Origin: Myxococcota bacterium
GTDB lineage: Bacteria > Myxococcota_A > UBA9042 > DTJE01
Direction of reading: 5' to 3'
Assembly: GCA_017994695.1 (NCBI GenBank)
Contig: JAGOKF010000006.1
Location: 1 to 64,000 of the forward strand
DNA length: 64,000 nucleotides
The stretch's first letter is position 1. Each line of letters starts with the position of its first letter. Made by a program: the position numbers and the translations under genes. This document shows, piece by piece, positions 31,918 through 45,567 of the stretch. Below the pieces are notes generated by a model that saw only the letters and a program-made list of their open reading frames with translations, searched no databases and was not told the DNA's origin.

Positions 31918-33231
31918 ATGGAGCAAGTCCGGTGCGTGATCCTCGGGGCCGGTCTGTCGGGCCTCTCCACGGCCCTCCACCTGGGTCACCAGGACTGGAT
32001 CGTGCTGGAACGGGAGGGCCGCCCGGGGGGTCTGACGCGCACCGAGGACCTGGACGGGTTCCTGTTCAACCACACCGGGCACTGGCTCCACCTCCGGGAC
32101 GACCGGGTCAAGGCGCTGGTGCAGGACCTGCTGCCCGGCGGGCTCGTCCCGGTGGTGCGCCAGGCGGCCATCTGGTCCCACGGCGTGTTCACGCTGTACC
32201 CCTTCCAGGCGAACCTCCACGGGCTCCCGGCGGCCGTGCTGCGCGAATGCCTCCAGGGGGCGGTCGAGGCAGCGGTCGCCCGGGCGGCGGGCACGGCCCC
32301 CCGGCCCCGCAACTTCGAGGAGTACGCCCGGGTCCATTTCGGGGAGGGGATCGCCCGCCATTTCATCGTGCCGTACAACACGAAACTGTGGGGAGTGCCC
32401 CCCTCGGAGGTGACCGCCGAGTGGACCCAGCGCTTCGTCCCGATCCCGGACATCCGGCAGGTGATCGACGGCGCCCTGGGGCTGTCCCGGGAGGCGATGG
32501 GCTACAACGCGACCTTCCTCTACCCGGCGGAAGGAGGCATCGAGACGCTGGCCCGGGCCTTCTACCGCCGTCTGGACCCGGGGCGCTTCCTGCTGAACAC
32601 CCGCCCCCGGCGGATCCACCTGGGACGCCGGGAAGTGGAATTCGGCGACCAGCGCCTCCGCTACGAGTCGCTGGTCTCGACGCTGGCCCTTCCGGACCTG
32701 GTGGCCCTCTGCGAGGACGCCCCCGCGGCGATGCGCCAGGCGGCGGCGCGCCTGAGGTGCTCGCCCCTGCGGTACATCAACGTCGCCCTGGACGTCGATC
32801 GGCCCCTGGACGGGCGGCATTGGATCTATCTCCCGGAGGGCCGGTACCCCTTCTACCGGGTCGGGTCGGCCAGCAACGCGGTGGCCTCCCTGGCACCGGC
32901 CGGGAAGTCCTCCCTCTATGTGGAGATCGCCAACGACCAGGACCTGCCCGAGGGGGACATCCTCCGGGCCCTGGTGGAGTTCCTGAAGGAGATCGGTACG
33001 GTCCGGTCGGACCGCCAGGTCCTCTTCGCGGCCTTCCGGCGCCACCCCTGGGGGTACGTGATCTTCGACCGGCACTGCTCCCGGGACCGGGAGCGGATCC
33101 TCGCGGCGCTGAAACGCCGCGGAGTCCTCTCCATCGGTCGCTACGGCGGATGGACCTACAACTCGATGGAGGACGCCATCCTGGACGGGATTCGAACCGC
33201 GGAGGCCCTGGGAACCCCCGCAGAGAGGTGA
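31918..33231 (+). CDS. FAD-dependent protein related to UDP-galactopyranose mutase
   Basis: 437 residues opening with the dinucleotide fold VILGAGLSGLSTALHL and the FAD-ribose Glu in IVLEREGRPGG, then an amine-oxidase-type middle (NFEEYARVHFGEGIARHFIV, PYNTKLWGVPPSEVTAEW). The second stretch is close to the NNKLW/NxRxW-type region of UDP-galactopyranose mutases and related protoporphyrinogen-oxidase-like proteins. The end, YGGWTYNSMEDAILDG, matches the C-terminal FAD contact. It is first in an operon with a glycosyltransferase and a deacetylase, so conversion of a nucleotide sugar or lipid-linked sugar is likely. The exact substrate is open. Confidence 0.87.
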   Translation: MEQVRCVILGAGLSGLSTALHLGHQDWIVLEREGRPGGLTRTEDLDGFLFNHTGHWLHLRDDRVKALVQDLLPGGLVPVVRQAAIWSHGVFTLYPFQANLHGLPAAVLRECLQGAVEAAVARAAGTAPRPRNFEEYARVHFGEGIARHFIVPYNTKLWGVPPSEVTAEWTQRFVPIPDIRQVIDGALGLSREAMGYNATFLYPAEGGIETLARAFYRRLDPGRFLLNTRPRRIHLGRREVEFGDQRLRYESLVSTLALPDLVALCEDAPAAMRQAAARLRCSPLRYINVALDVDRPLDGRHWIYLPEGRYPFYRVGSASNAVASLAPAGKSSLYVEIANDQDLPEGDILRALVEFLKEIGTVRSDRQVLFAAFRRHPWGYVIFDRHCSRDRERILAALKRRGVLSIGRYGGWTYNSMEDAILDGIRTAEALGTPAER

Positions 33232-33237
33232 GCGGAC

Positions 33238-33975
33238 ATGGCCCCGGATCACGTCGAACCGCCCCGCTTCCACGTCAGCATCGTGATCCCGGTCTTCAAC
33301 GAGGAGCGGCTGCTGGCCACCGCGGTGAACGACCTGGTGGCGCGACTCCAGCGGGAGATGCCGGTCACCTGGGAGGTGATCCTGTCGGAGAACGGCAGCC
33401 GGGACGGGACGCCCCGGATCGCCGAGGAACTGGCCGAGCGGCACCGCAACCTCCGGGTGCTCCACACCCCGGAACCGAACTACGGCCGGGCGCTGCGGCG
33501 GGGCATCGAGGAGGCCCGGGGCTTCCACGTCTTCTGCGACGAGATCGACATCTGCGACGTGGACTTCTACCAGCGGGCCCTGGAGATCCTGATGGCCGAC
33601 CAGGCGGACATGGTGGTCGGCAGCAAGCGGCATCCCGACGCCCAGGATCGGAGGCCCTTCATCCGGCGGCTGGCCACGAGGGTGCTGAACCTGCTGCTGC
33701 GGGTGATCGTCGGCTTCCACGGCACGGACACCCACGGGCTGAAGGCCTTCCGGCGGGACCGGCTGATGCCGGTCGTGGAGCGTTGCATCGTGGAAAAGGA
33801 CCTGTTCGCCAGCGAACTGGTGATCCGGGCGGAACGGGCGGTCCGGGTGCGGGAGATCCCGGTCACCATCGTCGAGAAGCGCCCCCCGTCCATCAACCTG
33901 TTCCGGCGGGTCCCGAACGTGCTGCGCAACCTCTGGCGCCTCTTCGTGGTGATCCGGCTCGGGAGGCCGGCGTGA
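33238..33975 (+). CDS. Family 2 glycosyltransferase
   Basis: 245 residues with the GT-A fold: VSIVIPVFNEERLL at the start, the donor-binding VILSENGSRDGT and the acidic metal site in FCDEIDICD, replacing the common DxD. The layout and length resemble dolichyl-phosphate-mannose-synthase-like enzymes without the extra membrane domain, so it probably transfers a sugar to a polyprenyl carrier or cell-surface glycan. The Shine-Dalgarno GAGAGGTGA overlaps the previous stop; the stop overlaps the next GTG start. Confidence 0.92.
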   Translation: MAPDHVEPPRFHVSIVIPVFNEERLLATAVNDLVARLQREMPVTWEVILSENGSRDGTPRIAEELAERHRNLRVLHTPEPNYGRALRRGIEEARGFHVFCDEIDICDVDFYQRALEILMADQADMVVGSKRHPDAQDRRPFIRRLATRVLNLLLRVIVGFHGTDTHGLKAFRRDRLMPVVERCIVEKDLFASELVIRAERAVRVREIPVTIVEKRPPSINLFRRVPNVLRNLWRLFVVIRLGRPA

Positions 33976-34904
33976 CGCCCCCGACGTCGCGGGACCCCCT
34001 GCTGTGCCTCTCGATCGACCTGGACGATCTGCGCTACTACCGGGCCATCCACGCCCTGGCCCCGGGACCCGCCGAGGAGGACGAGTGTCTCTTCCGGAAG
34101 GCCGTCCCCCGCTTCCTGGAACTGGCCGGGGACCTGGGCGTCCCCGGGACCCTCTTCGTGATCGCCGAGGACCTGGACCGGGTCGAGGGGGCCCGGGAGG
34201 CGCTTCGGGAGGCCGTCGGCCAGGGACACGAGGCCGCGTCCCACAGCCTGACGCACCCCTACGACCTGTCCCGCCAGCCCCGGGAGGCCATCGCCCGGGA
34301 GGTCCGGGAGGCCCGGGCCCGGATCCAGGACGCCCTGGGAACCGAGGTCCGGGGATTCCGGGGGCCCGGCTACAACCTGTCCCCGGTCCTGCTCCAGGAG
34401 GTGGCCGCGGCGGGCCATGCATGGGATTCCTCGATCCTCCCCTCCCCGGCCTACTGGGCTGTCCGGGCCTCGGTGATCGCCTGGATGGCCCTCCGGGGAC
34501 GACCCAGCCGGTCGATCACGGGCCGGGCCCGGGACTTCCTGGCCCGTCCCCGGACCCCCTTCCGCTGGCCCCAGGAACACGGAGGGATCTGGGAGATCCC
34601 GATGACCGCGGCCGGGTGGCTGCGCCTCCCCCTGATCGGCACGAACCTGGCCCTGGGAGGATTCGTGGCCCGGCATCCCTGGACCGCGGCCTGGGACCTC
34701 CCGCTGGTCCACGTGGAATTCCACGGGCTGGACTTCCTGGACGCCGAAGAGGATCGCCTGGACCCGGACCTCCGGGTGGAGCCGGTGCTCCGGGTTCCCC
34801 TGGCGGAACGGATGGATCGGTTCCGGGAGTTTCTTCGGCCCCTGGCGGCCTCCCGGCAAAGCCTCGTCCTCTCCCGGGTGCCCCTGTCGCCGACCCGAAC
34901 CTGA
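33972..34904 (+). CDS. Polysaccharide deacetylase family protein
   Basis: 310 residues; the GTG start overlaps the GT2 stop. NodB-type motifs are visible: LSIDLDDL for the catalytic Asp pair, ASHSLTHPYDL for the two zinc His, and FRGPGYNLSP for the third motif. Near the end, HVEFHGLDF holds the His of the last motif. Members remove acetyl groups from N-acetyl sugars in peptidoglycan or other surface glycans. No signal peptide is evident, so it may act in the cytoplasm on a lipid-linked precursor made with the two preceding genes. Position supports that; sequence alone does not. Confidence 0.9.
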   Translation: MTPPTSRDPLLCLSIDLDDLRYYRAIHALAPGPAEEDECLFRKAVPRFLELAGDLGVPGTLFVIAEDLDRVEGAREALREAVGQGHEAASHSLTHPYDLSRQPREAIAREVREARARIQDALGTEVRGFRGPGYNLSPVLLQEVAAAGHAWDSSILPSPAYWAVRASVIAWMALRGRPSRSITGRARDFLARPRTPFRWPQEHGGIWEIPMTAAGWLRLPLIGTNLALGGFVARHPWTAAWDLPLVHVEFHGLDFLDAEEDRLDPDLRVEPVLRVPLAERMDRFREFLRPLAASRQSLVLSRVPLSPTRT

Positions 34905-35004: not shown

Positions 35005-35421
35005 ATGAAGGACTGCGTCTTCTGCCGGATCGTCGAGGGATCGCTGCCCTGTGCCCGGGTCTTCGAGGACCGGGACTTCCTGGCCTTCCTGGACATCCGG
35101 CCGGTGCACCCGGGCCACCTGCTGCTGATCCCGAAGACCCACTGGGTGCGCCTGACGGACCTCCCGGAGGAGATCCTGGCCCGGGAGATGCCCCTGGCGG
35201 CCCGCCTGGCCCGGGTCGTGCTGGAAGCCACCGGCGCGACCGACTTCAACCTGCTGAACACCAACGGCCCCGCCTCGGGCCAGGAGGTCTTCCACCACCA
35301 TCTCCACGTGATCCCCCGGGCCCCGGGCGACGGCCTCCGGCTCTCGATCTCCGCCACCCCCTACGGACCGGGGGAGTTGGAGGCCCTGGCGGAACGCATC
35401 GCGGGACGGGTGGCCCGATGA
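35005..35421 (+). CDS. HIT-family nucleotide hydrolase/transferase
   Basis: 138 residues, close to the usual size. A zinc-type CVFC lies near the start and the histidine triad appears as HHHLHVIPR near residue 97. Family members hydrolyse nucleoside phosphoramidates or dinucleotide polyphosphates. GGGAGGA precedes the ATG. The stop overlaps the ATG of the next gene (ATGA), tying the two in translation. Why it lies in an envelope operon is unclear. Confidence 0.94.
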   Translation: MKDCVFCRIVEGSLPCARVFEDRDFLAFLDIRPVHPGHLLLIPKTHWVRLTDLPEEILAREMPLAARLARVVLEATGATDFNLLNTNGPASGQEVFHHHLHVIPRAPGDGLRLSISATPYGPGELEALAERIAGRVAR

Positions 35422-37493
35422 ACCGGACCCTCCCCTCGGACGAGGAACTGCTGGGCCTGGTCTGGCCCGCCCTGCGTCCGCTGAACGCCGAGGGGTCGGG
35501 CGGGTCCCACACCGAGGTGATGGTCTTCGAAGCCGGGGCCCTGGAGGAGATCCTCTGCCGGGAGGCCGGCGGGTCTCCGAAGGCTGCCGATCGGACCCGG
35601 TCCCTCGCACGGTCCCTGGCGGACCGCTTCCTGGTCAAGGTCGGCAACATCGACCGGTACGTGGTGAAGCTCCGGGAGGACCGGGAATCGGTCATCCCCC
35701 GGCACCTGGTGTCCGAGGCCTTCGGGCCCGCGGGCTACAACCTCGCGCCGACCCTGGACAAGGTGATGACCGACGCCCGGGAGGCCGTCCGGGAGATCCC
35801 CTACTTCGGGTTCGGCCGCCTGGAGGACCAGTTCGCGCCGGACCCCCTGGAACAGATCCGGGGAGCCCTGGGCGGGAGCCTCGAACCCGTCGGCGATCCC
35901 GACGGGACCTTCCTGGTCGTCGAGGACGGACGGCGGGTCCGCCACAGCGCCTTCGACATCCTCCACGAGGACCCTTTCTTCCGGGAAGCGGCCAACTCCC
36001 CGGATTCCCTCTTCGCCTTCCAGCAGAACCTCCGCCGGTTTCCCCTCGACCTCGCGGCGACGGAACGCCTGAGGCCCTTCTTCGACGCCCCGATCACCGT
36101 CGGCGTCCGGGACGTCCTCCGCTACCTCCACGGGAGCCGCCACCCGGCGCTGGACTGGAACCGGGCCCACGAGGTGATCCGCCGGTCCTTCGCCACCCAC
36201 GGCCGCCAGAACTTCCTCCCCCCGGAAATCAACTACTACGTCCGGGAGGCGGCGGTGGATCGCGAGCGGGCCCGATGGATGGCCCGGGAGAACCGGGAGA
36301 CGGCCAGTGCCTTCGCCCGGTGGATGGTCGAGCGGCTTCCCTGGGACGTCACCGCCCCCCTTTCGGACGCCCGCCTGGAGGAAATCGCCTGGGCGGTCCT
36401 GGAACTCCACCACGACTATCCCCTGTACGAGGTGGAGCCCTACTCGGGGGTGCTGAGCCTGACGACGCTCCGGTTGGCCCTCCGGGCGGCCGTCAGCGCG
36501 ACGGAGTGGCTGCTGGACATCCCGGTGCCCGTGCGGCGCAACGCCCTCCACGAGGAAATGGCCCGCCGGGCCGCCCCCCTGGCCCGGTGGATGGACGACC
36601 TGCCACCGGACCGCCGCCTGCCGATCTGCAACCTGCTGAACGGGATGCTGTGGGAGATGGCGATGCGGGGCGGCGTCCCCCGGGAGGACGGCACCCTGGC
36701 CCGCTGGCGGATCCACCGGAAGACCTTCTATTCCTTCCAGGAGAAGGCCGGGTACGGCATCTCCCGCAGCGGGCGCCTGACGGAGGTGGTGCCCCTGGAG
36801 GCCCTGCGCGGCCCCGAAGGACCGCGGATCCGGAAGCGCCACCCCGAACTGGACCCGATGCTGGTGGTCTTCTTCACGGTGGCCTACCGCTACTTCCTGG
36901 ACACCGGACACGCCCCGGACTTCCGGCCGGACCAGGCGGGACGGGATCTCTTCCTGATGGGGGAATGGGGGGACCTGACCCGGAACGTGCTGCTGGGCCT
37001 CGGGGAGGCCCCCGACGGGCGCCCCCTCTGCGAGGTCCGCTTCGTGGACAACAAGGACCAGTTCAAGCAGTACCGCTCCTGGGAGGATCGGGCCCACCCG
37101 ATGGGGCTCGTCAAGTACGGACTCCGGCTGGTGGAGCCCCTGGTGCGCCCGGGCCTGGAACGGGCCCTGGGACGGGCGGTCGAGCGGGCGGAGGAGGGAC
37201 TGGGAGGCCGGCCGGGGAGGGCGCCGGCCCGGAGCCAGCGCCTGGTCCGGGTGACGGGGCAGGTGCTCCGCCAGGGCGTCGACTTCGGGACCTCCCACCT
37301 GCAGGCGTTCCTCCACGACCTGATCGACGACACGGTGGCCGGTGTCCTCTGGGCCCTGGGCCGCCGCGGGGACCCGGAACCCCGGGAAGGCGCCGACGGA
37401 GCCCCCGGACCGGAAGCGGCCGGGAACGACACGGATTTGTCCCTTCCCCCGTCCCCGGGTAGAATGGCCGGCAGACAGGAGGTGGCTCGATGA
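35418..37493 (+). CDS. Large protein of unknown family in the envelope operon
   Basis: 691 residues, no signal peptide or transmembrane helix, so probably cytoplasmic. I do not recognise it. An N-terminal segment FLVKVGNIDRYVVKLRED looks like nucleotide-binding or small beta structure; the middle (about 220-440) is helical. Near residue 480, RYFLDTGHAPDFRPDQAGRD, then LFLMGEWGDLTRNVLL, has the Asp and Asn spacing seen in atypical kinase catalytic loops, a weak hint only. The last 50 residues are Pro/Gly-rich and may be a tail. Start and stop both overlap neighbours by four bases (ATGA), so it is an integral part of the operon. Confidence 0.8.
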   Translation: MNRTLPSDEELLGLVWPALRPLNAEGSGGSHTEVMVFEAGALEEILCREAGGSPKAADRTRSLARSLADRFLVKVGNIDRYVVKLREDRESVIPRHLVSEAFGPAGYNLAPTLDKVMTDAREAVREIPYFGFGRLEDQFAPDPLEQIRGALGGSLEPVGDPDGTFLVVEDGRRVRHSAFDILHEDPFFREAANSPDSLFAFQQNLRRFPLDLAATERLRPFFDAPITVGVRDVLRYLHGSRHPALDWNRAHEVIRRSFATHGRQNFLPPEINYYVREAAVDRERARWMARENRETASAFARWMVERLPWDVTAPLSDARLEEIAWAVLELHHDYPLYEVEPYSGVLSLTTLRLALRAAVSATEWLLDIPVPVRRNALHEEMARRAAPLARWMDDLPPDRRLPICNLLNGMLWEMAMRGGVPREDGTLARWRIHRKTFYSFQEKAGYGISRSGRLTEVVPLEALRGPEGPRIRKRHPELDPMLVVFFTVAYRYFLDTGHAPDFRPDQAGRDLFLMGEWGDLTRNVLLGLGEAPDGRPLCEVRFVDNKDQFKQYRSWEDRAHPMGLVKYGLRLVEPLVRPGLERALGRAVERAEEGLGGRPGRAPARSQRLVRVTGQVLRQGVDFGTSHLQAFLHDLIDDTVAGVLWALGRRGDPEPREGADGAPGPEAAGNDTDLSLPPSPGRMAGRQEVAR

Positions 37494-37696
37494 ATCGCTG
37501 GACGATGCTGCTGGTGGCGATGGGCCTCTCGTTCGCCACGGCGTGCGAGGAGAACCTCCCCCGGCCGACCCCGCCCACGGGCAAGGGGGCCGAGAACGGG
37601 GCGACTCCCAAGTCCTCCTTCTCGAGTTCCAATCCGGGCATGTTCACCTTCCCGGACGCCGCCGCGCTGGACGCTCCGGAAGAGACGGGCCTGTAG
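37490..37696 (+). CDS. Small predicted lipoprotein
   Basis: 68 residues: a signal MNRWTMLLVAMGLSFATAC with the lipidated Cys at 19, then an unordered Pro/Ser/Asn-rich tail. AGGAGG lies just before the ATG and the start overlaps the previous stop. Too small for a domain; possibly a membrane tether or assembly factor for the operon. Confidence 0.8.
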   Translation: MNRWTMLLVAMGLSFATACEENLPRPTPPTGKGAENGATPKSSFSSSNPGMFTFPDAAALDAPEETGL

Positions 37697-37736
37697 GGCA
37701 GGGATCCGCCCCCCCTCGATGGCCGGGAGGTCTCCC

Positions 37737-38351
37737 ATGACGCGAAGGGCCCTCGTCGCAGGCCTGCTGCTGCTGGCGGCCTGCTCCTCCAGGGAACCCG
37801 ACCTCACGAAGCCCTCGGGGACCTACCTGGCCTGGAGGGAGGCCGAGGACCGGGGGGACTACCGGACCATCTTCCAGTTGCTGGTCTCCCCGGTCCGGGA
37901 GCAGATCCGCAAGACCTTCGAGAACCTGCAGGAGTCCCAGGCCCTGATCGCGAAACACTACCCAGTGCCCCTGCAGCGCCAGGCCCTGGAGGATCTGGCT
38001 CCGCCGGAGATGCGGGAGGCCCGGGACCCTGCCGCGCTGTACGAGGCGATGATCCGGCGGGACGGCCGGCCTCCGGAACTGATCACCGGCGCCACCACCC
38101 GGAGGTGGCTCGCGGAGGTCCGGACGATCGAGGAGAAGCCGCCCGGCACCGGCCGCTACGAACTGGTCCCCATGTCCGGAGCCAAGGTCGAACTGGTCCG
38201 GGAAGAGGACGGAAAGGTCCACATGGTCCCCTCGCCGGGAGACCTCGAGAAGATCCGGGGGCACCACGTGCGTTCCCTGGACCGGCTGGCCTCGATCCGC
38301 CAGGCCGCCGAGGTCCTCCGGGGAGACGCCCAGGCGACCCAGAGACGCTGA
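37737..38351 (+). CDS. Predicted lipoprotein
   Basis: 204 residues with signal MTRRALVAGLLLLAAC and a mature chain of about 190. The region after the anchor (SGTYLAWREAEDRGDYRTIFQLL) resembles the helix-turn-helix opening of NTF2-like or DUF4878-type lipoproteins, in which a cone-shaped fold follows. No catalytic residues are evident. GGGAGG precedes the ATG. The end lies 15 bases before the CTG start of the MepA-type gene. Confidence 0.78.
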   Translation: MTRRALVAGLLLLAACSSREPDLTKPSGTYLAWREAEDRGDYRTIFQLLVSPVREQIRKTFENLQESQALIAKHYPVPLQRQALEDLAPPEMREARDPAALYEAMIRRDGRPPELITGATTRRWLAEVRTIEEKPPGTGRYELVPMSGAKVELVREEDGKVHMVPSPGDLEKIRGHHVRSLDRLASIRQAAEVLRGDAQATQRR

Positions 38352-38366
38352 ACCACGGAGGTCCCA

Positions 38367-39422
38367 CTGAAGACCCATCGACTGATCTGGACGGGATGGA
38401 GCCTGCTGGCGCTGTCCTGCGCCACCGCCGGCCCCCGAACCGCCTCCCTCCGGGAGGAACTCCCCCCCTGGGAGACGCCCCCGGCGCCCCCGGCACCGCC
38501 GCCCCTCCAGGACCGGATCGTCCAGGGACAGCGGGGGCTTTCGGGGATCGAAGGGCGGGATGCGGAAGTCCCGCCGGAACGGGCCGCCGGGGAGGGAACG
38601 CACATCTCGTTCCGGAACCCCGAAGGTCGCCGGGTCACCCTGCAGATGCAGCCCCAGTCCCGCTCGGTCGGGAGCCCCAATCGGGGCCGCCTCGCGGGGG
38701 GCCGGGAGTTCCCGAAGGAAGGCCCGGGCTGGTTCCGGTTCAGTCCCAATGCCTGGGGAACCGACGAGACGGTGTCCCTGCTCCAGTGGGCGCTGGAGGA
38801 GTGGAACCGCACCTTCCCGGACGCCCCCCCGGTGGCCGTGGGGGCCCTGTCCCGGGAGAACGGGGGGCGCCTGCGCCCCCACAAGTCCCACCAGTCGGGA
38901 CGGGACGTGGACCTGGGCCTGGTGCCGGCGGATCGGCAGACCCCGAACGGGTTCGTCCCGTTCCCGAAGTCGCGGCTGGATTTCCGCAAGACGGTCCACC
39001 TGATGGCGCTGCTGGTATCGACCGGGCGGGTCCAGGCCATCTTCATCCACCGTTCGCTGATCCCGGGCCTGCGCCAGGCGGCCGAGGAGGCGGGGTTCGA
39101 CCCGGACCTGCTGGCCCGGATGTTCGGGACGCCGGGACGGAAGGGAATCGTCCAGGCCTGGAAGGGCCACCGGGCCCACTACCACGTCCGGTTCGCCTGT
39201 CCCGCCGGCGACCCCTCCTGCTACGAGGAGGCGGTCCGCCTCGGGCCGAAGTCCAAGGCGATCGCCGGGAAGAAGAAGTCCTCGCCGGAACGGACCGGAG
39301 CCGCTTCGAAGGCGGGGTCCCGTCCGGCTCGCAAGGTGCTCACCAACACCCGCCCCGGCGGCAGGTCCGATGCCTCCCGGTCCCCGGGGACGAAATCCCG
39401 GGAACACCGGCGCCGGTACTGA
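38367..39422 (+). CDS. MepA-type murein endopeptidase lipoprotein, apparent CTG start
   Basis: The lipoprotein signal (KTHRLIWTGWSLLALSC) is encoded directly after a CTG at 38367 that sits five bases after GGAGG. No ATG, GTG or TTG occurs in frame between the upstream in-frame stop (38349-38351) and the ATG at 38646, which lies past the signal. CTG is thus the likely start, giving 351 residues. The catalytic part has HKSHQSGRDVDLGL (zinc His, Asp) near residue 172 and AHYHVRFAC, both typical of penicillin-insensitive D,D-endopeptidase MepA. A basic tail of about 60 residues follows. It should cut peptidoglycan cross-links. Confidence 0.88.
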   Translation: MKTHRLIWTGWSLLALSCATAGPRTASLREELPPWETPPAPPAPPPLQDRIVQGQRGLSGIEGRDAEVPPERAAGEGTHISFRNPEGRRVTLQMQPQSRSVGSPNRGRLAGGREFPKEGPGWFRFSPNAWGTDETVSLLQWALEEWNRTFPDAPPVAVGALSRENGGRLRPHKSHQSGRDVDLGLVPADRQTPNGFVPFPKSRLDFRKTVHLMALLVSTGRVQAIFIHRSLIPGLRQAAEEAGFDPDLLARMFGTPGRKGIVQAWKGHRAHYHVRFACPAGDPSCYEEAVRLGPKSKAIAGKKKSSPERTGAASKAGSRPARKVLTNTRPGGRSDASRSPGTKSREHRRRY

Positions 39423-39467: not shown

Positions 39468-41345
39468 TCAGCGCTCGAGGTCCGAGAGGCGCTTGCGGAC
39501 CTGGGAGACCTGCCACTGGTTCAGCACCAGCACCACGTCCCGGAAGCCGGGCTCGGCCGGGGCGATCCCGTAGGGATCCCCGTCCTTCTTCTCCCCGAAG
39601 ACCTGCAGCACGTGCCGGGACCCGTCGTCCAGTTCCACCGTCACGGTGACCTCCGGCCTGCCCGATGCGGCCTTGCGGGCCGCCGGATCCCGGGCGATCG
39701 CCTTGGCGGTCCACCCGGCCACGGTGCCCAGCACCAGGCCGACCGCATCGTCCTTCAGCGACGCCGCCTCCCGGGGTTTCAGGGCCTTCCAGGCCCGCTT
39801 TCCTGGGGCCGATTCCCCCGCGTCCACGAGCACCAGCGTCTCCTCGGGCTGGGCGATCTCGATGCGCCGGACCCGGGCCTGGTCGAAGTCGAAGAAGGTC
39901 TTCTGCCGGAGGTCCTCGGGGCCCTTCCGGATCCGTCCCAGGGCCCACCCGGGCAGCAGGGCCACCTGCCCTGACGGCTCCACGGCCACATAGCGGGTCC
40001 CGGATCCCTTCTCGGCGCCCACCTTCAGGACCCGGCGCCCGCCGTCGGCCGTCGCCACCGTGACGGTCACGACCGGGGCCTCCAGGCCCGTCTGGGCCCC
40101 CTGCCAGGCCGAGGGGGGCAGGAAGGCGTCGGCCTTCAGGGACTCCAGGTCGGTCAGCAGCGCCTCCACGACCGCCCGGCCCAGGGGAAGGCCCGCCGGT
40201 TCGACCGCCCGCCAGGCGTTCCCCGCCCGTTCCAGGGCCACCCGGCTCGACCCGTCCCGGATCTCGACCGCCCGGATCCGGTCCCGGGGCACCCCGAAGA
40301 GGCGGGTGTCCCGCAGCTCCCCGGTGTGCTTGCGCAACTGGTCATGGGCATACCGGGCGACCTTGCCGTACCCCCCGACCCCGGAGACCTGCACGAAGGC
40401 CTGGTCGTCCTTCAGGTTGGACAGCCGGATTTCGACCCGGCGGCCGTTCTCCAGCACCGCGGTCACCCGGAAGGACTGGTCGTCGATCCGGAAGCCCTCG
40501 GGCAGGGCATCGACGTACTCCTGGACGTAGGTCCCCGCCAGGGACGCCACATAGGCCGACACCGCGCCGGCGGCCAGCCCCGGCGGGTTCTCGAACCGCC
40601 AGGTCCGCTCCTTCTTCGCCGGCGCCTTGCCGGGATCGGCCCCCTCGGCCTGGTCGGTCCCCTCCCGGACCTCCGAGACCAGCCGGATCTCCCGGTCCTC
40701 GGGGTCCGGCGCCCCGGGGTCCCGGATCTCGATCGCCTGGACGTCCCCGCTCTCGAAGTCCAGGATGCGCCGGTCCCGGAGCGCCTTCAGGCCCCCCTCG
40801 AAGGGACGGCGGAGGTCCCGTTCCAGCACCCGCCAGACCCGGGGATCCCCGGCCACCCGGACGAAGGTGTCCGCGGCCCCCGGGGAACCGTCCTTCTCGT
40901 CCTTCTGGGCCGCCCCGATCTCCAGGGTGACCTCGGGCTGGCCCACCCGGTGCCAGGTGACCCGGATGCGGTTCCCCTCGTCCAGCCCGTAGGCCTTCTC
41001 GTCGTCCTTCGAGGCCACCGAGGGGATCACCGACACCAGGTCCTCCTTCAGAACCTCGATCATCTGCCGGACCTTGTAGCGGTCGGCCCTGGCCCCTTCC
41101 GGGGCGCTCATCGTCCACTTCCGGGTGTCGGCGTCCCGGACCAGGGTGACCCTGCCCTCGGACGTCTCGATGTCGATCCGGTCGATGGGGGCCTCCTCCT
41201 CGGGCTTCTCGGTCTTCTGGACCGAGGCCCATCCGGGGATGCGCAGATCGGCACCCCCGCGCCCCCGGGGCCACCAGGCCACCGCCAGCACCACCACCAG
41301 GAGGCCCAGGAACACCCCGAGCAGGATGCGGGTCCCGCGGTTCAT
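39468..41345 (-). CDS. DUF4340 domain protein
   Basis: 625 residues: a short cytoplasmic start, one membrane helix (TRILLGVFLGLLVVVLAVAWW), then a large extracytoplasmic region of repeated beta domains containing DUF4340-type segments such as RVTLVRDADTRKWTM and ERAGNAWRAVEP. Proteins of this family sit beside GldG-type ABC components, as here: it follows the GldG gene by one base. It probably acts with the exporter, perhaps as a periplasmic accessory; its activity is unknown. Confidence 0.9.
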   Translation of the reverse strand: MNRGTRILLGVFLGLLVVVLAVAWWPRGRGGADLRIPGWASVQKTEKPEEEAPIDRIDIETSEGRVTLVRDADTRKWTMSAPEGARADRYKVRQMIEVLKEDLVSVIPSVASKDDEKAYGLDEGNRIRVTWHRVGQPEVTLEIGAAQKDEKDGSPGAADTFVRVAGDPRVWRVLERDLRRPFEGGLKALRDRRILDFESGDVQAIEIRDPGAPDPEDREIRLVSEVREGTDQAEGADPGKAPAKKERTWRFENPPGLAAGAVSAYVASLAGTYVQEYVDALPEGFRIDDQSFRVTAVLENGRRVEIRLSNLKDDQAFVQVSGVGGYGKVARYAHDQLRKHTGELRDTRLFGVPRDRIRAVEIRDGSSRVALERAGNAWRAVEPAGLPLGRAVVEALLTDLESLKADAFLPPSAWQGAQTGLEAPVVTVTVATADGGRRVLKVGAEKGSGTRYVAVEPSGQVALLPGWALGRIRKGPEDLRQKTFFDFDQARVRRIEIAQPEETLVLVDAGESAPGKRAWKALKPREAASLKDDAVGLVLGTVAGWTAKAIARDPAARKAASGRPEVTVTVELDDGSRHVLQVFGEKKDGDPYGIAPAEPGFRDVVLVLNQWQVSQVRKRLSDLER

Positions 41346-41346
41346 C

Positions 41347-43704
41347 TCAACTCCTCCTCCGTCGAGACAGGGTCCGGAAGACCCCGAACAGTGCGAAGAG
41401 GGCCGGCAGGCCCAGGATGAACAGCCACTGGATCGCCGTCCGGACCCCGGGAGACAGGACCCGGATCGGTCGCTTCACGTACGCCTTGGACCGGATGTCC
41501 ACCAGGGCCTCGTTCTGGATCCCCCAGTCCAGGGCGTTGAACAGGAAGTCCAGGTTCTGCATCACGATGGGGGAGATCTGGGTCAGGCGCAGCTGCCAGT
41601 TCTGGAAGTTGGCGATGTAGTCCTTCAGCCGCAGGAAGAAGTCCGCCCGGCCCGAGGTCAGCATCGACAGGTTGAAGCCGTCGAAGACCTTCTCGGGGCT
41701 GAGGTTCTCGAGACCGAGGTTCGACCCGATCACCAGCAGGCGCCCCTGCCCCCGGGCCTGGAAGGGCCGTTCGGGCGGGGTCCTGTCCCCCGCCGACCCC
41801 TCCCGCGCCGGGCGTTTCGGGATCTCCTTGCCGTCGAACCAGGACCGGAAGGTTCCCTGGATGGCCACTGCGACCGTGTGGGGCCCGTTGGAGGGCAGCA
41901 TCGCCGCCTGGCGCAGCAGCGCCGGGGGCGAGAGTTCGACGTTCTCCTTCACGGCGCTGGCATCCCGGCTGGACCGGATCAACTCGACCACCTGCCGCTC
42001 CGGGTCCTGGCGCGCCTCGTCGGTCACGGCGAGGGTCGAGGCGTAGGGCAGCGTGACCGACGACAGGCGCTTCACCAGCACGTGGGACCGGTCCAGGTCC
42101 GAAAAGGTGGGCAGCAGCGGGTAGGGGAAGTCCCGCTGGCTCTGGAGCGTGTAGCGCCCCTGGCGCTGGAGCTGCAGGATGGTGATGTCCCCGAAGTCCC
42201 GCTTCTCGACCACGATGTCCTGGTTGGCCTGGACCCCGTAGTGGGCCAGCAGGGGTCCCAGGTTGGTCGGGCGGGACTCGCGGTGCAGGTCGTCGGCGGT
42301 CATGTCCGAGGGATCCAGGGACTCGCCGCCCTTGCGGAAGTTGTACACGGCCACGTCCCAGGTGTTCAGGAACACCAGCACAGAGCGCCCCGAGAGCAGG
42401 AACTGGTCGATCACGTAGAGGTCCCGGTCCGACAGGGGCTTTTCGGGCCCGAAGACCACCAGGGCCTCGACGTCGTCGGGGACGTCCTCCCCCGGGTCGA
42501 TCCGCTTCAGCGTCAGGCCCTTGCGGGTGAAGAGGGCCCGGCGGATCTGCTCGTTGATCTGCTGGATCTGGTCCTCGATGGCCTTGGCCTGGGACGCGAA
42601 CTGCTGCACCAGGGGGTTGTTCTGGCCCATCAGGCCCAGGATCTCCGGCCGGAACAGGGAGGAGGACTCGGCGAAGGGACAGAACTCCCGGTGGCCGCAC
42701 AGGAACCCGACGGCCTTCCTTCCCGGGCTGTCCTTCAGGGTCTCCTGGTCCCGGGCGACCAGTTCGGCCAGCTGGAGGAGCGCCTCGACGGACTCCCCGA
42801 TCCCCCGGGATTCGCCCTGGGGGTCCCCCAGCAGCCGCTTGACCTCGTCCAGGCGCTGCACGAAGGCCTGGGCGGTTCCCAGCAACTGGTCCAGGTACTC
42901 GTTCCGGCCCCTCAGGACCTGGGCCTTCGCCACCTCCCCGGCCACCGCGTCGCAGGTCCGGGCGAATCCCTCGGCGTCGGCCCGCATCGCCGCCAGGCCG
43001 CCGCCTCCCCCCTGGAACAGCGCCGCCAGGCCCGTCCCCTGATCCCCGTCGGACTTCCGGTAGCCCTCGACCTTCTCCCGGCAGGCCTTCACGGCCTTCG
43101 CGAGGCCCTCCCCGGCGTTCAGGACGTCCTGCATCCCCTGGGACTTCTCGTACTTCTCCTTCAACCGCATCAGGATCTTGGTGATCTCGAACTCGAAGTA
43201 CTCCGGCTCCAGGGCCAGGGGAAAGACCTCCATCTGGTTGCGGTACTGGAAGGTGGCCCCCAGGGCGTACCGGCGGAACTCCAGCCGCCCGCCCTCCACC
43301 GCGGCCTCCTTGCCCGTGAAGAGTTCCAGCCGGGCCGCCTGGGCCTTGTTCTCCACGTCCTCGGTGACCCGGGTGAGGTGCATCCGTCCCCCGGAGTAGG
43401 ATCGGTACTCCTCCAGCTTGTCCAGGAACTCCCGGGCCACTCCCCGGATGTCCCGCTCCCGGCCGTAGCCCAGGTCCAGCGTCCCCGGAAGGTCCGGCGA
43501 GATGAAGACCTGCACCTGGACCGAGTCGAGGTCCCGGACGGCCTGCCGGCTGACCTCCGACAGGGAGTACCTCCGGTTGTCCGTCAGGTCCCAGCGCCCG
43601 AACAGGAAGATCCCCAGCACGTTGACCAGCACCAGGATGCCCAGGATGGAGACCACCGTCACGGTGGCGTTGACCCGGGCCGAACGTCCGCTCTGCGTCG
43701 CCAT
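41347..43704 (-). CDS. GldG-type ABC transporter component
   Basis: 785 residues with one N-terminal membrane helix (VVSILGILVLVNVLGIFLF) and one at the C-terminus (WLFILGLPALFALFG). The large domain between them begins RYSLSEVSRQAVRDLDSVQVQ, the typical start of the ABC-type uncharacterised transport domain of GldG, and continues with coiled-coil stretches. DILRREF-type motility proteins are absent nearby, so gliding is not implied. It overlaps functionally with the permease and ATPase genes upstream in the same run. Confidence 0.9.
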   Translation of the reverse strand: MATQSGRSARVNATVTVVSILGILVLVNVLGIFLFGRWDLTDNRRYSLSEVSRQAVRDLDSVQVQVFISPDLPGTLDLGYGRERDIRGVAREFLDKLEEYRSYSGGRMHLTRVTEDVENKAQAARLELFTGKEAAVEGGRLEFRRYALGATFQYRNQMEVFPLALEPEYFEFEITKILMRLKEKYEKSQGMQDVLNAGEGLAKAVKACREKVEGYRKSDGDQGTGLAALFQGGGGGLAAMRADAEGFARTCDAVAGEVAKAQVLRGRNEYLDQLLGTAQAFVQRLDEVKRLLGDPQGESRGIGESVEALLQLAELVARDQETLKDSPGRKAVGFLCGHREFCPFAESSSLFRPEILGLMGQNNPLVQQFASQAKAIEDQIQQINEQIRRALFTRKGLTLKRIDPGEDVPDDVEALVVFGPEKPLSDRDLYVIDQFLLSGRSVLVFLNTWDVAVYNFRKGGESLDPSDMTADDLHRESRPTNLGPLLAHYGVQANQDIVVEKRDFGDITILQLQRQGRYTLQSQRDFPYPLLPTFSDLDRSHVLVKRLSSVTLPYASTLAVTDEARQDPERQVVELIRSSRDASAVKENVELSPPALLRQAAMLPSNGPHTVAVAIQGTFRSWFDGKEIPKRPAREGSAGDRTPPERPFQARGQGRLLVIGSNLGLENLSPEKVFDGFNLSMLTSGRADFFLRLKDYIANFQNWQLRLTQISPIVMQNLDFLFNALDWGIQNEALVDIRSKAYVKRPIRVLSPGVRTAIQWLFILGLPALFALFGVFRTLSRRRRS

Positions 43705-43713
43705 GATCGCCTC

Positions 43714-44451
43714 CTACTTCCACTTCCTGGACTCGAGGGAGTGGCCCGCCAGCGCCAGGGCCCCCGCCACCACCGAGAGGAAGAAGACCAGGTCCCGGGT
43801 GTCCAGCACCCCCCGGGCGATGGACTGGAAGTGGTGGTGGAAGGACATCATGTTGGCGGCTTCCAGGGCCGGCAGCCCCACGGCCTCGGGGAGCCGGTCC
43901 ACGAAGGTCAGGGCCGCGCACAGGGCGATGGCGGTCAGGAACGCGGTGATCTGGCTCTGGGTCCAGGCGGAGGTCAGCAGTCCCACGGCCAGGTAGGCCG
44001 CCCCGACCAGCAGGACGCCGAAGTAGCCCCCGACCAGGGGTCCGGGGTCCGGACTGCCCAGGGCCGTCACCAGCAGGGGATAGGGAAGCGTCAGGGCCGC
44101 CGCGACCCCCAGGAACCCCAGGGCCCCCAGGAACTTGCCCAGGACCACCTCGGTCTCCGTCAGGGGAAGCGTCAGCAGCAGTTCCAGCGTCCCCAGTTTC
44201 CGTTCCTCGGCCAGCAGGCGCATCGAGATGGCCGGGAGGATGATCGTGAACAGGAAGATCATCCACTCGAAGAGGGGGCGCAAGGTCGCCTCCCGGGCTT
44301 CGAAGAAGTCCTCCTTCGGAAGCAGGAAGGGGACCCGGAAGAAGAAGACGACCCCCAGCAGCAGCAGGAACACCGCGATGGCGATGTAGGCCACCGGGGA
44401 TCCGAAGTAGGCCAGGATCTCGCGCCTGGCCAGGGAGATCACGTTGCGCAT
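43714..44451 (-). CDS. ABC transporter permease (GldF-like)
   Basis: 245 residues with about six hydrophobic segments, starting ISLARREILAYFGSPVAYI, the usual opening of ABC-2 permeases of the GldF group, with EERKLGTLELLLTLPLTETE in the coupling-helix region. It should form the membrane channel with GldG and the ATPase encoded just upstream. Confidence 0.93.
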   Translation of the reverse strand: MRNVISLARREILAYFGSPVAYIAIAVFLLLLGVVFFFRVPFLLPKEDFFEAREATLRPLFEWMIFLFTIILPAISMRLLAEERKLGTLELLLTLPLTETEVVLGKFLGALGFLGVAAALTLPYPLLVTALGSPDPGPLVGGYFGVLLVGAAYLAVGLLTSAWTQSQITAFLTAIALCAALTFVDRLPEAVGLPALEAANMMSFHHHFQSIARGVLDTRDLVFFLSVVAGALALAGHSLESRKWK

Positions 44452-44479
44452 GGCTCGGCCTCCTGGTCTGTTCGTCCCG

Positions 44480-45418
44480 TCAGGACAGGGTCAACCGCTG
44501 GAAGATCGCCTCCAGGTCCAGGCGCTCGCGCCGGGACTCCAGCAGCGTCCAGCCCGCCTCCACGCACCACCGGAACAGCGCCGGGCGGAGGTCCTCCTCC
44601 CCCCTCGCCGCGACCCGGAAGACCTGGCCGGCGGCCCCGGGGACCTCCAGGGGGGTCACCTCGGCGACCTCGGGACGGCTCCCCAGCAGCGTCCGGGGTT
44701 CGGGGGATCCGCCGGGGACCAGGACCTCGAGGCGGTAGGTGTTGCCGCCCCCGTGGCGCGCCGTGATGGCGTCCGGGGTGCCGTCGGCCCGGACCTGCCC
44801 CTTGTGGATCAGGACGATCCGGTTGCAGGTGGCCGTGACCTCGGGCAGGTTGTGGGTGGACAGGATCACGGTCCGGTCCTGGCCCAGGTCCCGGATCACC
44901 TCCCGGATCTCCACGATCTGGTTGGGGTCCAGGCCCGACGTGGGCTCGTCCAGGACCAGGATGTCTGGATCGTGGATCATCGCCTGGGCCAGGCCGACCC
45001 GCTGGCGGTACCCCTTCGACAGGGTCCCGATCTCCTGATCCATCACCGGGACGATCCCGACCCGGAGGGCCACCCGCTGGATCCGCTCGGGCAACTCCCG
45101 GGGCCCGATGCCCCGGACGTCCCCCACGAAGGAGAGGTACTCCCGGGGCGTCATGTCCGTGTAGAGGGGGGCGTTCTCCGGCAGGTAGCCGATGCGGCGC
45201 CGCACCTCCAGGCCCCGGTTCACCACGTCCATCCCGGCGACCGTGACGGTGCCCGAGGACGCGGCGATGAAGCCGGTGAGGATCTTCATGCAGGTGGTCT
45301 TCCCCGCCCCGTTCGGCCCCAGGAATCCCACCACCTCCCCCTTCTCGACCGTGAAGGAGACCCCATTCAGCGCCCGAATGGGGCCGTAGTCCTTGACCAG
45401 ATTCCGGATCTCGATCAT
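44480..45418 (-). CDS. ABC transporter ATP-binding protein (GldA-like)
   Basis: 312 residues. Walker A is GPNGAGKTT, the signature LSKGYRQRVGLA and Walker B ILVLDEPTSGLDP, with the H-loop His in STHNL. A C-terminal extension of about 90 residues is typical of exporters in this group. GGAGGGAGGACC precedes the ATG. It is the first gene of the ATPase, permease, GldG, DUF4340 run; the 28-base gap to the permease gene shows coupling. The cargo is unknown. Confidence 0.95.
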   Translation of the reverse strand: MIEIRNLVKDYGPIRALNGVSFTVEKGEVVGFLGPNGAGKTTCMKILTGFIAASSGTVTVAGMDVVNRGLEVRRRIGYLPENAPLYTDMTPREYLSFVGDVRGIGPRELPERIQRVALRVGIVPVMDQEIGTLSKGYRQRVGLAQAMIHDPDILVLDEPTSGLDPNQIVEIREVIRDLGQDRTVILSTHNLPEVTATCNRIVLIHKGQVRADGTPDAITARHGGGNTYRLEVLVPGGSPEPRTLLGSRPEVAEVTPLEVPGAAGQVFRVAARGEEDLRPALFRWCVEAGWTLLESRRERLDLEAIFQRLTLS

Positions 45419-45567
45419 GGTCCTCCCTCCGATTCCGACCCTCCGGCCCTCCCGGCGGACCCGGCCGGGCACCAAACCCCCGGCGGCGCCGGTTTATTCC
45501 GGGGACCGTCCCCTGTCAATGGCCCGGCGCCCGGGTCGGGGGTCCCGCGGCGGGGCCTGCCCTCTGC

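Follow-up and report, generated by a model that had tools for sequence, protein, structure and literature searches.

The gene considered here occupies positions 35418..37493 of the window, by which we mean the whole 64,000-nucleotide stretch that was analysed; it lies on the forward (+) strand, as do all features below unless noted otherwise. It runs from an ATG at 35418 to a TGA at 37491-37493 and encodes a 691-residue protein with a predicted protein-kinase-like (PKL) fold, an annotation based on the ORF and its translation, conservation, omega, a structural model and the PKL matches of that model. The stop codon (TGA, 35419-35421) of a HIT (HinT-like) gene at 35005..35421 (PF01230, E 2e-24) overlaps its start, and a 68-aa ORF at 37490..37696, a candidate lipoprotein beginning MNRWTMLLVAMGLSFATAC and found also at loci L020, L023 and L071, starts within its stop. 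Both overlaps consist of the four bases ATGA, which confirms the ORF and its overlap with the genes on either side, for which the sequence-only reading had proposed translational coupling. The G+C content by codon position (0.75/0.48/0.92) resembles that of the neighbouring genes, and dN/dS (omega) against the gene of a same-genus genome (87% identity) is 0.17 for the whole gene; the ORF is therefore coding rather than a chance frame, a genuine gene that is conserved and evolves under purifying selection. Within the same pair omega is 0.087 over residues 431-600, where the candidate C-lobe lies and where the value is the lowest in the protein, 0.107 over residues 186-430 and 0.42 in the tail. 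On the minus strand opposite the gene there is a 651-aa ORF, which we discounted as the antisense frame of a high-GC gene. The protein contains no segment of sufficient hydrophobicity for a membrane span.

Upstream lie genes for a flavoprotein (UGM-like/amine oxidase, 31918-33231; PF01593, TIGR00031 weakly), a GT2 glycosyltransferase (33238-33975; family match) and a polysaccharide deacetylase (33972-34904; PF01522). The deacetylase gene ends 100 bases before the HIT start at 35005, and the overlapping unit therefore consists of the HIT gene, the 691-aa gene and the small lipoprotein gene. Downstream follow a second candidate lipoprotein of no family (37719..38351), conserved beside the gene in f1, the genome family to which the window belongs, and an M74 (MepA-like) murein endopeptidase (38646..39422; PF03411, E 4e-18), whose true start is probably further upstream and which is conserved downstream in f1. 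The flavoprotein, GT2, deacetylase, HIT and M74 neighbours thus match by family the names that they had been given from the letters. The GT2 gene beside the PF01522 deacetylase recalls the ArnC-ArnD pair, with a weak NCBIfam match to PRK10714. On the minus strand, 39468-45475 holds a gldG-like/ABC transporter cluster (an ATPase, a permease, a GldG-like protein and one more, named by reading), also conserved downstream in f1.

The 691-aa protein had been described as lacking any familiar domain, and the library searches agree: nothing in Pfam or NCBIfam (E<=1 for both) or in PADLOC (E<=0.1) matches it. Searches of PDB sequences with the protein itself and with profiles A1 and A3 gave nothing convincing; profile A3 against PDB chains, haspin among them, returned at E<=10 one match, which is unrelated. 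Alignment by hhalign to the ABC1 and APH families gave probabilities of 0.1-0.2%, no higher than those of unrelated control families, and C-lobe fragments searched against Pfam at a low threshold produced chance matches only. Remote homology search by sequence therefore yields no clear match to a characterised family. At this locus only the HIT protein has a PADLOC match, to ThsC, through its HIT domain, and this was not taken as defence.

Homologues were found in about 35 genomes, every one from Myxococcota, the profile-level search having been made within the phylum; among 378 sampled genomes of the phylum, 28 carry one. All 13 genomes of f1 have a homologue, f2 and f9 within the class have it too, and further homologues are scattered among f13, f29, f40, f49, f64 and f65. 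A scan of 84,980 species with a single sequence, which detects close relatives only, gave 11 loci, mostly titled Deltaproteobacteria or Myxococcota; one of them, L029, is titled Oligoflexales and is the same contig as that of genome G002 of f1. The alignment of 35 sequences (A3) divides into subfamily I, with 26 members including the 691-aa protein, and subfamily II, a monophyletic group (clade support 1.0) of nine members, those of f40 and f13 together with one of the two proteins that genome G235 encodes. Identity across subfamily I ranges from 31 to 88%. Genome G235 encodes both branches on separate contigs (L065, 4323-6245, and L066, 8894-10849).

An AlphaFold2 model built from the 35 relatives has a pLDDT of 85.8 and a pTM of 0.86, compared with a pLDDT of 74.5 for a first model from 17 sequences. 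Foldseek against the PDB gave no match at E<=0.001 with either model; its top matches (IRG1, CYP51, Fanzor and oxidoreductases, at E 0.2-4 and probability <0.1) were taken as chance. When VIA-align was run on Foldseek's top 1000, all 50 of the entries listed were PKL folds. The best is haspin (6g34; Z 9.0, rmsd 5.0, 209 residues aligned), and DAPK, PRPK, Rio2, Rv3197, Src-family kinases, FGFR and CK1 are also listed. At rank 50 Z is still 6.1, against a stated background of 4-5; models without clear matches reach 7-8, which the haspin value exceeds by little. A similar list came from the poorer first model. The matches span residues 7-597 of the model with only about 200 residues aligned, and a large intervening part must therefore be extra. 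Since the PDB holds many kinases and a Z of 9 is modest, the fold list alone is weak, and it is the residue pattern described below that makes it convincing. Taking both together, we regard a PKL fold for the 691-aa protein as likely.

None of the known PKL groups that we compared is a close counterpart. Haspin (GSG2), a eukaryotic histone kinase, is the top structural match over residues 7-597 but has 10% identity to the 691-aa protein with no detectable sequence homology, and to our knowledge it has no comparable 300-residue insert. Rio2 and PRPK (Bud32) match the model with Z 7.1-7.5 and have no sequence match; as far as we know, they are compact kinases lacking an insert. A bacterial fold match is to UbiB/ABC1/ADCK (PF03109) via Rv3197, an ABC1-type protein (Z 6.8, rmsd 4.8, 202 aligned). 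However, the 691-aa protein has no Pfam ABC1 match, an hhalign probability of 0.1% and neither the KxGQ nor the HxDPHPGN loop, and the source genome has a separate true UbiB, the 691-aa protein not being among its listed ABC1 matches. The first model matched the APH/choline-kinase-like proteins APH(2'') and LicA (Z 5.2-5.5), but there is no PF01636 match, the hhalign probability is 0.2%, and the candidate catalytic loop reads PDLRP, nearer to the DLKP of Ser/Thr kinases than to APH.

Six PKL residues serve ATP and substrate binding and catalysis, namely G52, K72, E91, D166, N171 and D184 (PMC1821047). In the model and alignment of the 691-aa protein the candidates G29-H31, K74, E122, D501, N523 and D544 come in the same order as these six, the equivalences being drawn from the order of secondary-structure elements in the model and not from superposition. 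The candidate glycine-rich-loop equivalent (G-S-H, residues 29-31; 35502..35510) precedes the strand of residues 32-37, and its G29 and H31 are invariant in subfamily I and lost in II. K74 (35637..35639), in the strand 71-76, is the candidate β3 lysine (PKA K72), invariant in subfamily I and present in 0/9 of subfamily II. E122 (35781..35783), in the helix 113-130, is the candidate αC glutamate (PKA E91); the subfamily I rows that cover this site have E, with one D. The candidate catalytic loop, the DLKP-like D501-x-R503-P504 (36918..36929), follows the helix 478-496 and lies in RYFLDTGHAPDFRP; D501 and P504 are invariant in all 35 sequences and R503 throughout subfamily I. N523 (36984..36986), within LTRNVLL just before the strand 524-530, is asparagine in 34 of the 35 rows and may be either the catalytic/metal asparagine displaced by an expanded loop or a structural residue. 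The candidate DFG-equivalent metal-binding motif, D544-N-K-D547-Q-F-K550 (37047..37067), follows the strand 536-542; D544 (26/26), N545, D547, F549 and K550 are invariant in subfamily I, and residue 544 is glycine in all nine subfamily II proteins.

The pattern departs from canonical kinases at three points. The HxD motif (PKL H164) is absent, the residue two before D501 being A, V, I, L, M or Y in the 35 rows, and residue 506 (D501+5, the place of PKL N171) is N in f9 and f29 and D, E, Q or K elsewhere. N523, 22 residues after D501, is conserved rather than D501+5. The faint resemblance to atypical kinases noted earlier around LTRNVLL has nevertheless held up, more for the fold than for the activity: the model is confident, the listed matches are uniformly PKL, and the aspartate and asparagine whose conservation was in question are D501 and N523.

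Between the candidate αC and the candidate β4 the model places a region of about 300 residues (131-430; 35808..36707). It contains the motif TVGxRDxxRWxxGSRHPxxxW (residues 227-247), nearly invariant in both subfamilies, within which GxRDxxRWxxGSRHP shows the strongest conservation anywhere in the protein. In the homologue at L106 (G394, f65), K74, D501, N523 and D544 are intact and the insert motif is degenerate, with VEYGVQGFLRRLAGLDKP in place of TVGxRDxxRWxxGSRHP. A long C-terminal helix (residues 605-650; 37230..37367), modelled with lower confidence, lies outside the kinase-like part.

Subfamily I has 55 invariant columns, and subfamily II has lost 20 of them and kept 29. The lost ones are G29, H31, K74, G76, K115, D119, P128, L267, E270, F437, A444, E461, D544, N545, D547, F549, K550, D557, G563 and K566, while those kept include R95, R125, G229, R235, G239, P243, W247, D501, P504, G515, G518 and N523. 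Residues 1-90 or 544-566, a region picked post hoc, hold 12 of the 20 lost columns and none of the 29 kept (Fisher p 1e-6). Read from the alignment, the losses in subfamily II would fit a pseudokinase pattern. A truncated, degenerate relative at L064 (2-946; G033, f9) has LELAP where the PDLRP loop should be, so that the catalytic aspartate is lost, and LSS in place of VDN.

On the combined evidence of model and alignment we propose that the gene probably encodes a cytosolic, ATP-dependent phosphotransferase of PKL fold that represents a separate sequence family within Myxococcota; for the ATP-dependent phosphotransfer itself our confidence is moderate. The N-lobe would comprise residues ~7-130, with the Gly-loop G29-H31, the β3 lysine K74 and αC carrying E122, and the C-lobe residues ~430-597, with D501 in the DLRP-like loop, N523, and D544 as the DFG-Asp together with D547 and K550. 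Mg-ATP would bind between the lobes and phosphate would be passed to a substrate that the insert helps to hold. Subfamily II, having lost the lysine, the loop and the DFG-Asp together, may act as a pseudokinase or scaffold. The evidence leans slightly towards a new PKL family of Myxococcota, characterised by the ~300-residue αC-β4 insert, an expanded D501-N523 loop and an ATP-binding as well as a pseudokinase branch in which loop, lysine and DFG-Asp are lost together.

Could both branches be ATP-binding kinase-fold switches or scaffolds, that is, pseudokinases? The missing HxD and the variable D501+5 residue would be in keeping with this, as would the conservation of subfamily II despite the loss of its candidate ATP-site residues. 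However, K74, D501, N523 and D544 are retained by every member of subfamily I, and a pure scaffold would not need them, so we consider this reading rather unlikely, though the best placed of the alternatives to phosphotransfer.

Another reading concerns the chemistry. The PKL fold could transfer a nucleotide (AMPylation, as in SelO) or catalyse some other ligation that depends on ATP, in which case the HIT protein would remove or recycle the resulting AMP adduct. Hydrolysis of AMP adducts is a known activity of HIT proteins. SelO is a divergent PKL protein found in bacteria, and the HIT neighbour offers a possible link between SelO and the 691-aa gene. PKL-fold proteins that AMPylate or glutamylate are described in two reports (PMC10870513, PMC6858067). 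The HIT gene overlaps ours by four bases and is the sole f1 neighbour retained in f2, where BrkB and a Mur-ligase-like gene lie downstream. Against this, no Pfam family, SelO included, matches the 691-aa protein at E<=1, and the HIT gene adjoins it in only six of ten informative f1 loci (missing in L021, L024, L029 and L030) and was not seen beside it in families other than f1 and f2. Such chemistry therefore seems to us improbable.

The neighbourhood also raises the possibility that the 691-aa protein is an obligate enzyme of the flavoprotein-GT2-deacetylase glycan pathway. The f1 order, flavoprotein-GT2-deacetylase-[HIT]-gene-lipoprotein(s)-M74-gldG-like, is kept wherever contigs allow, its upstream part in all ten f1 loci with upstream sequence, including L030 with ~5 kb between deacetylase and gene. 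Outside f1 the association breaks down. The module, complete in f2, f3, f6 and f9, is old and conserved across several families of the class, yet it is present in genomes without a detected homologue of our gene (G014 of f3, several of f6), and in f2 and f9 module and gene are on different contigs. With the module found without the gene and the gene without the module, neither requires the other. The survey of gene neighbourhoods thus upholds the earlier placement in an envelope-glycan operon as a constant arrangement of f1 but not beyond it, since in other families the gene is placed elsewhere, and an obligate role in this pathway, already weakened, appears doubtful at best. An envelope-related substrate or regulatory role in f1 genomes is favoured by gene order alone. 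Loci of the module outside the window's 31918-34904 are L193, L198, L199, L201, L202, L205, L206, L207 and L208.

Least probable is a new non-kinase α/β fold merely resembling the kinase arrangement, for although Foldseek has no significant match, profile-profile comparison shows no relation to ABC1 or APH and the strongest conservation sits in the non-kinase insert, every listed VIA-align match is PKL, Z exceeds the stated background at rank 50, and the invariant residues agree independently and are lost in coordination.

For the preferred reading, a PKL-fold phosphotransferase, the natural contrast between a branch that has the candidate ATP-site residues and one that lacks them provides clean, testable predictions. 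The case is of wider interest since unusual chemistries (AMPylation, glutamylation, lipid handling) have been found in kinase-fold proteins invisible to sequence libraries. Genes of the family adjoin envelope-related genes in several lineages. A sulfatase/LtaS-type gene lies after the gene of subfamily II at five f40 loci (L070, L075, L178, L179 and L069), and in f29 and f13 (L066, L068) a diacylglycerol-kinase-type gene comes before the gene of this branch.
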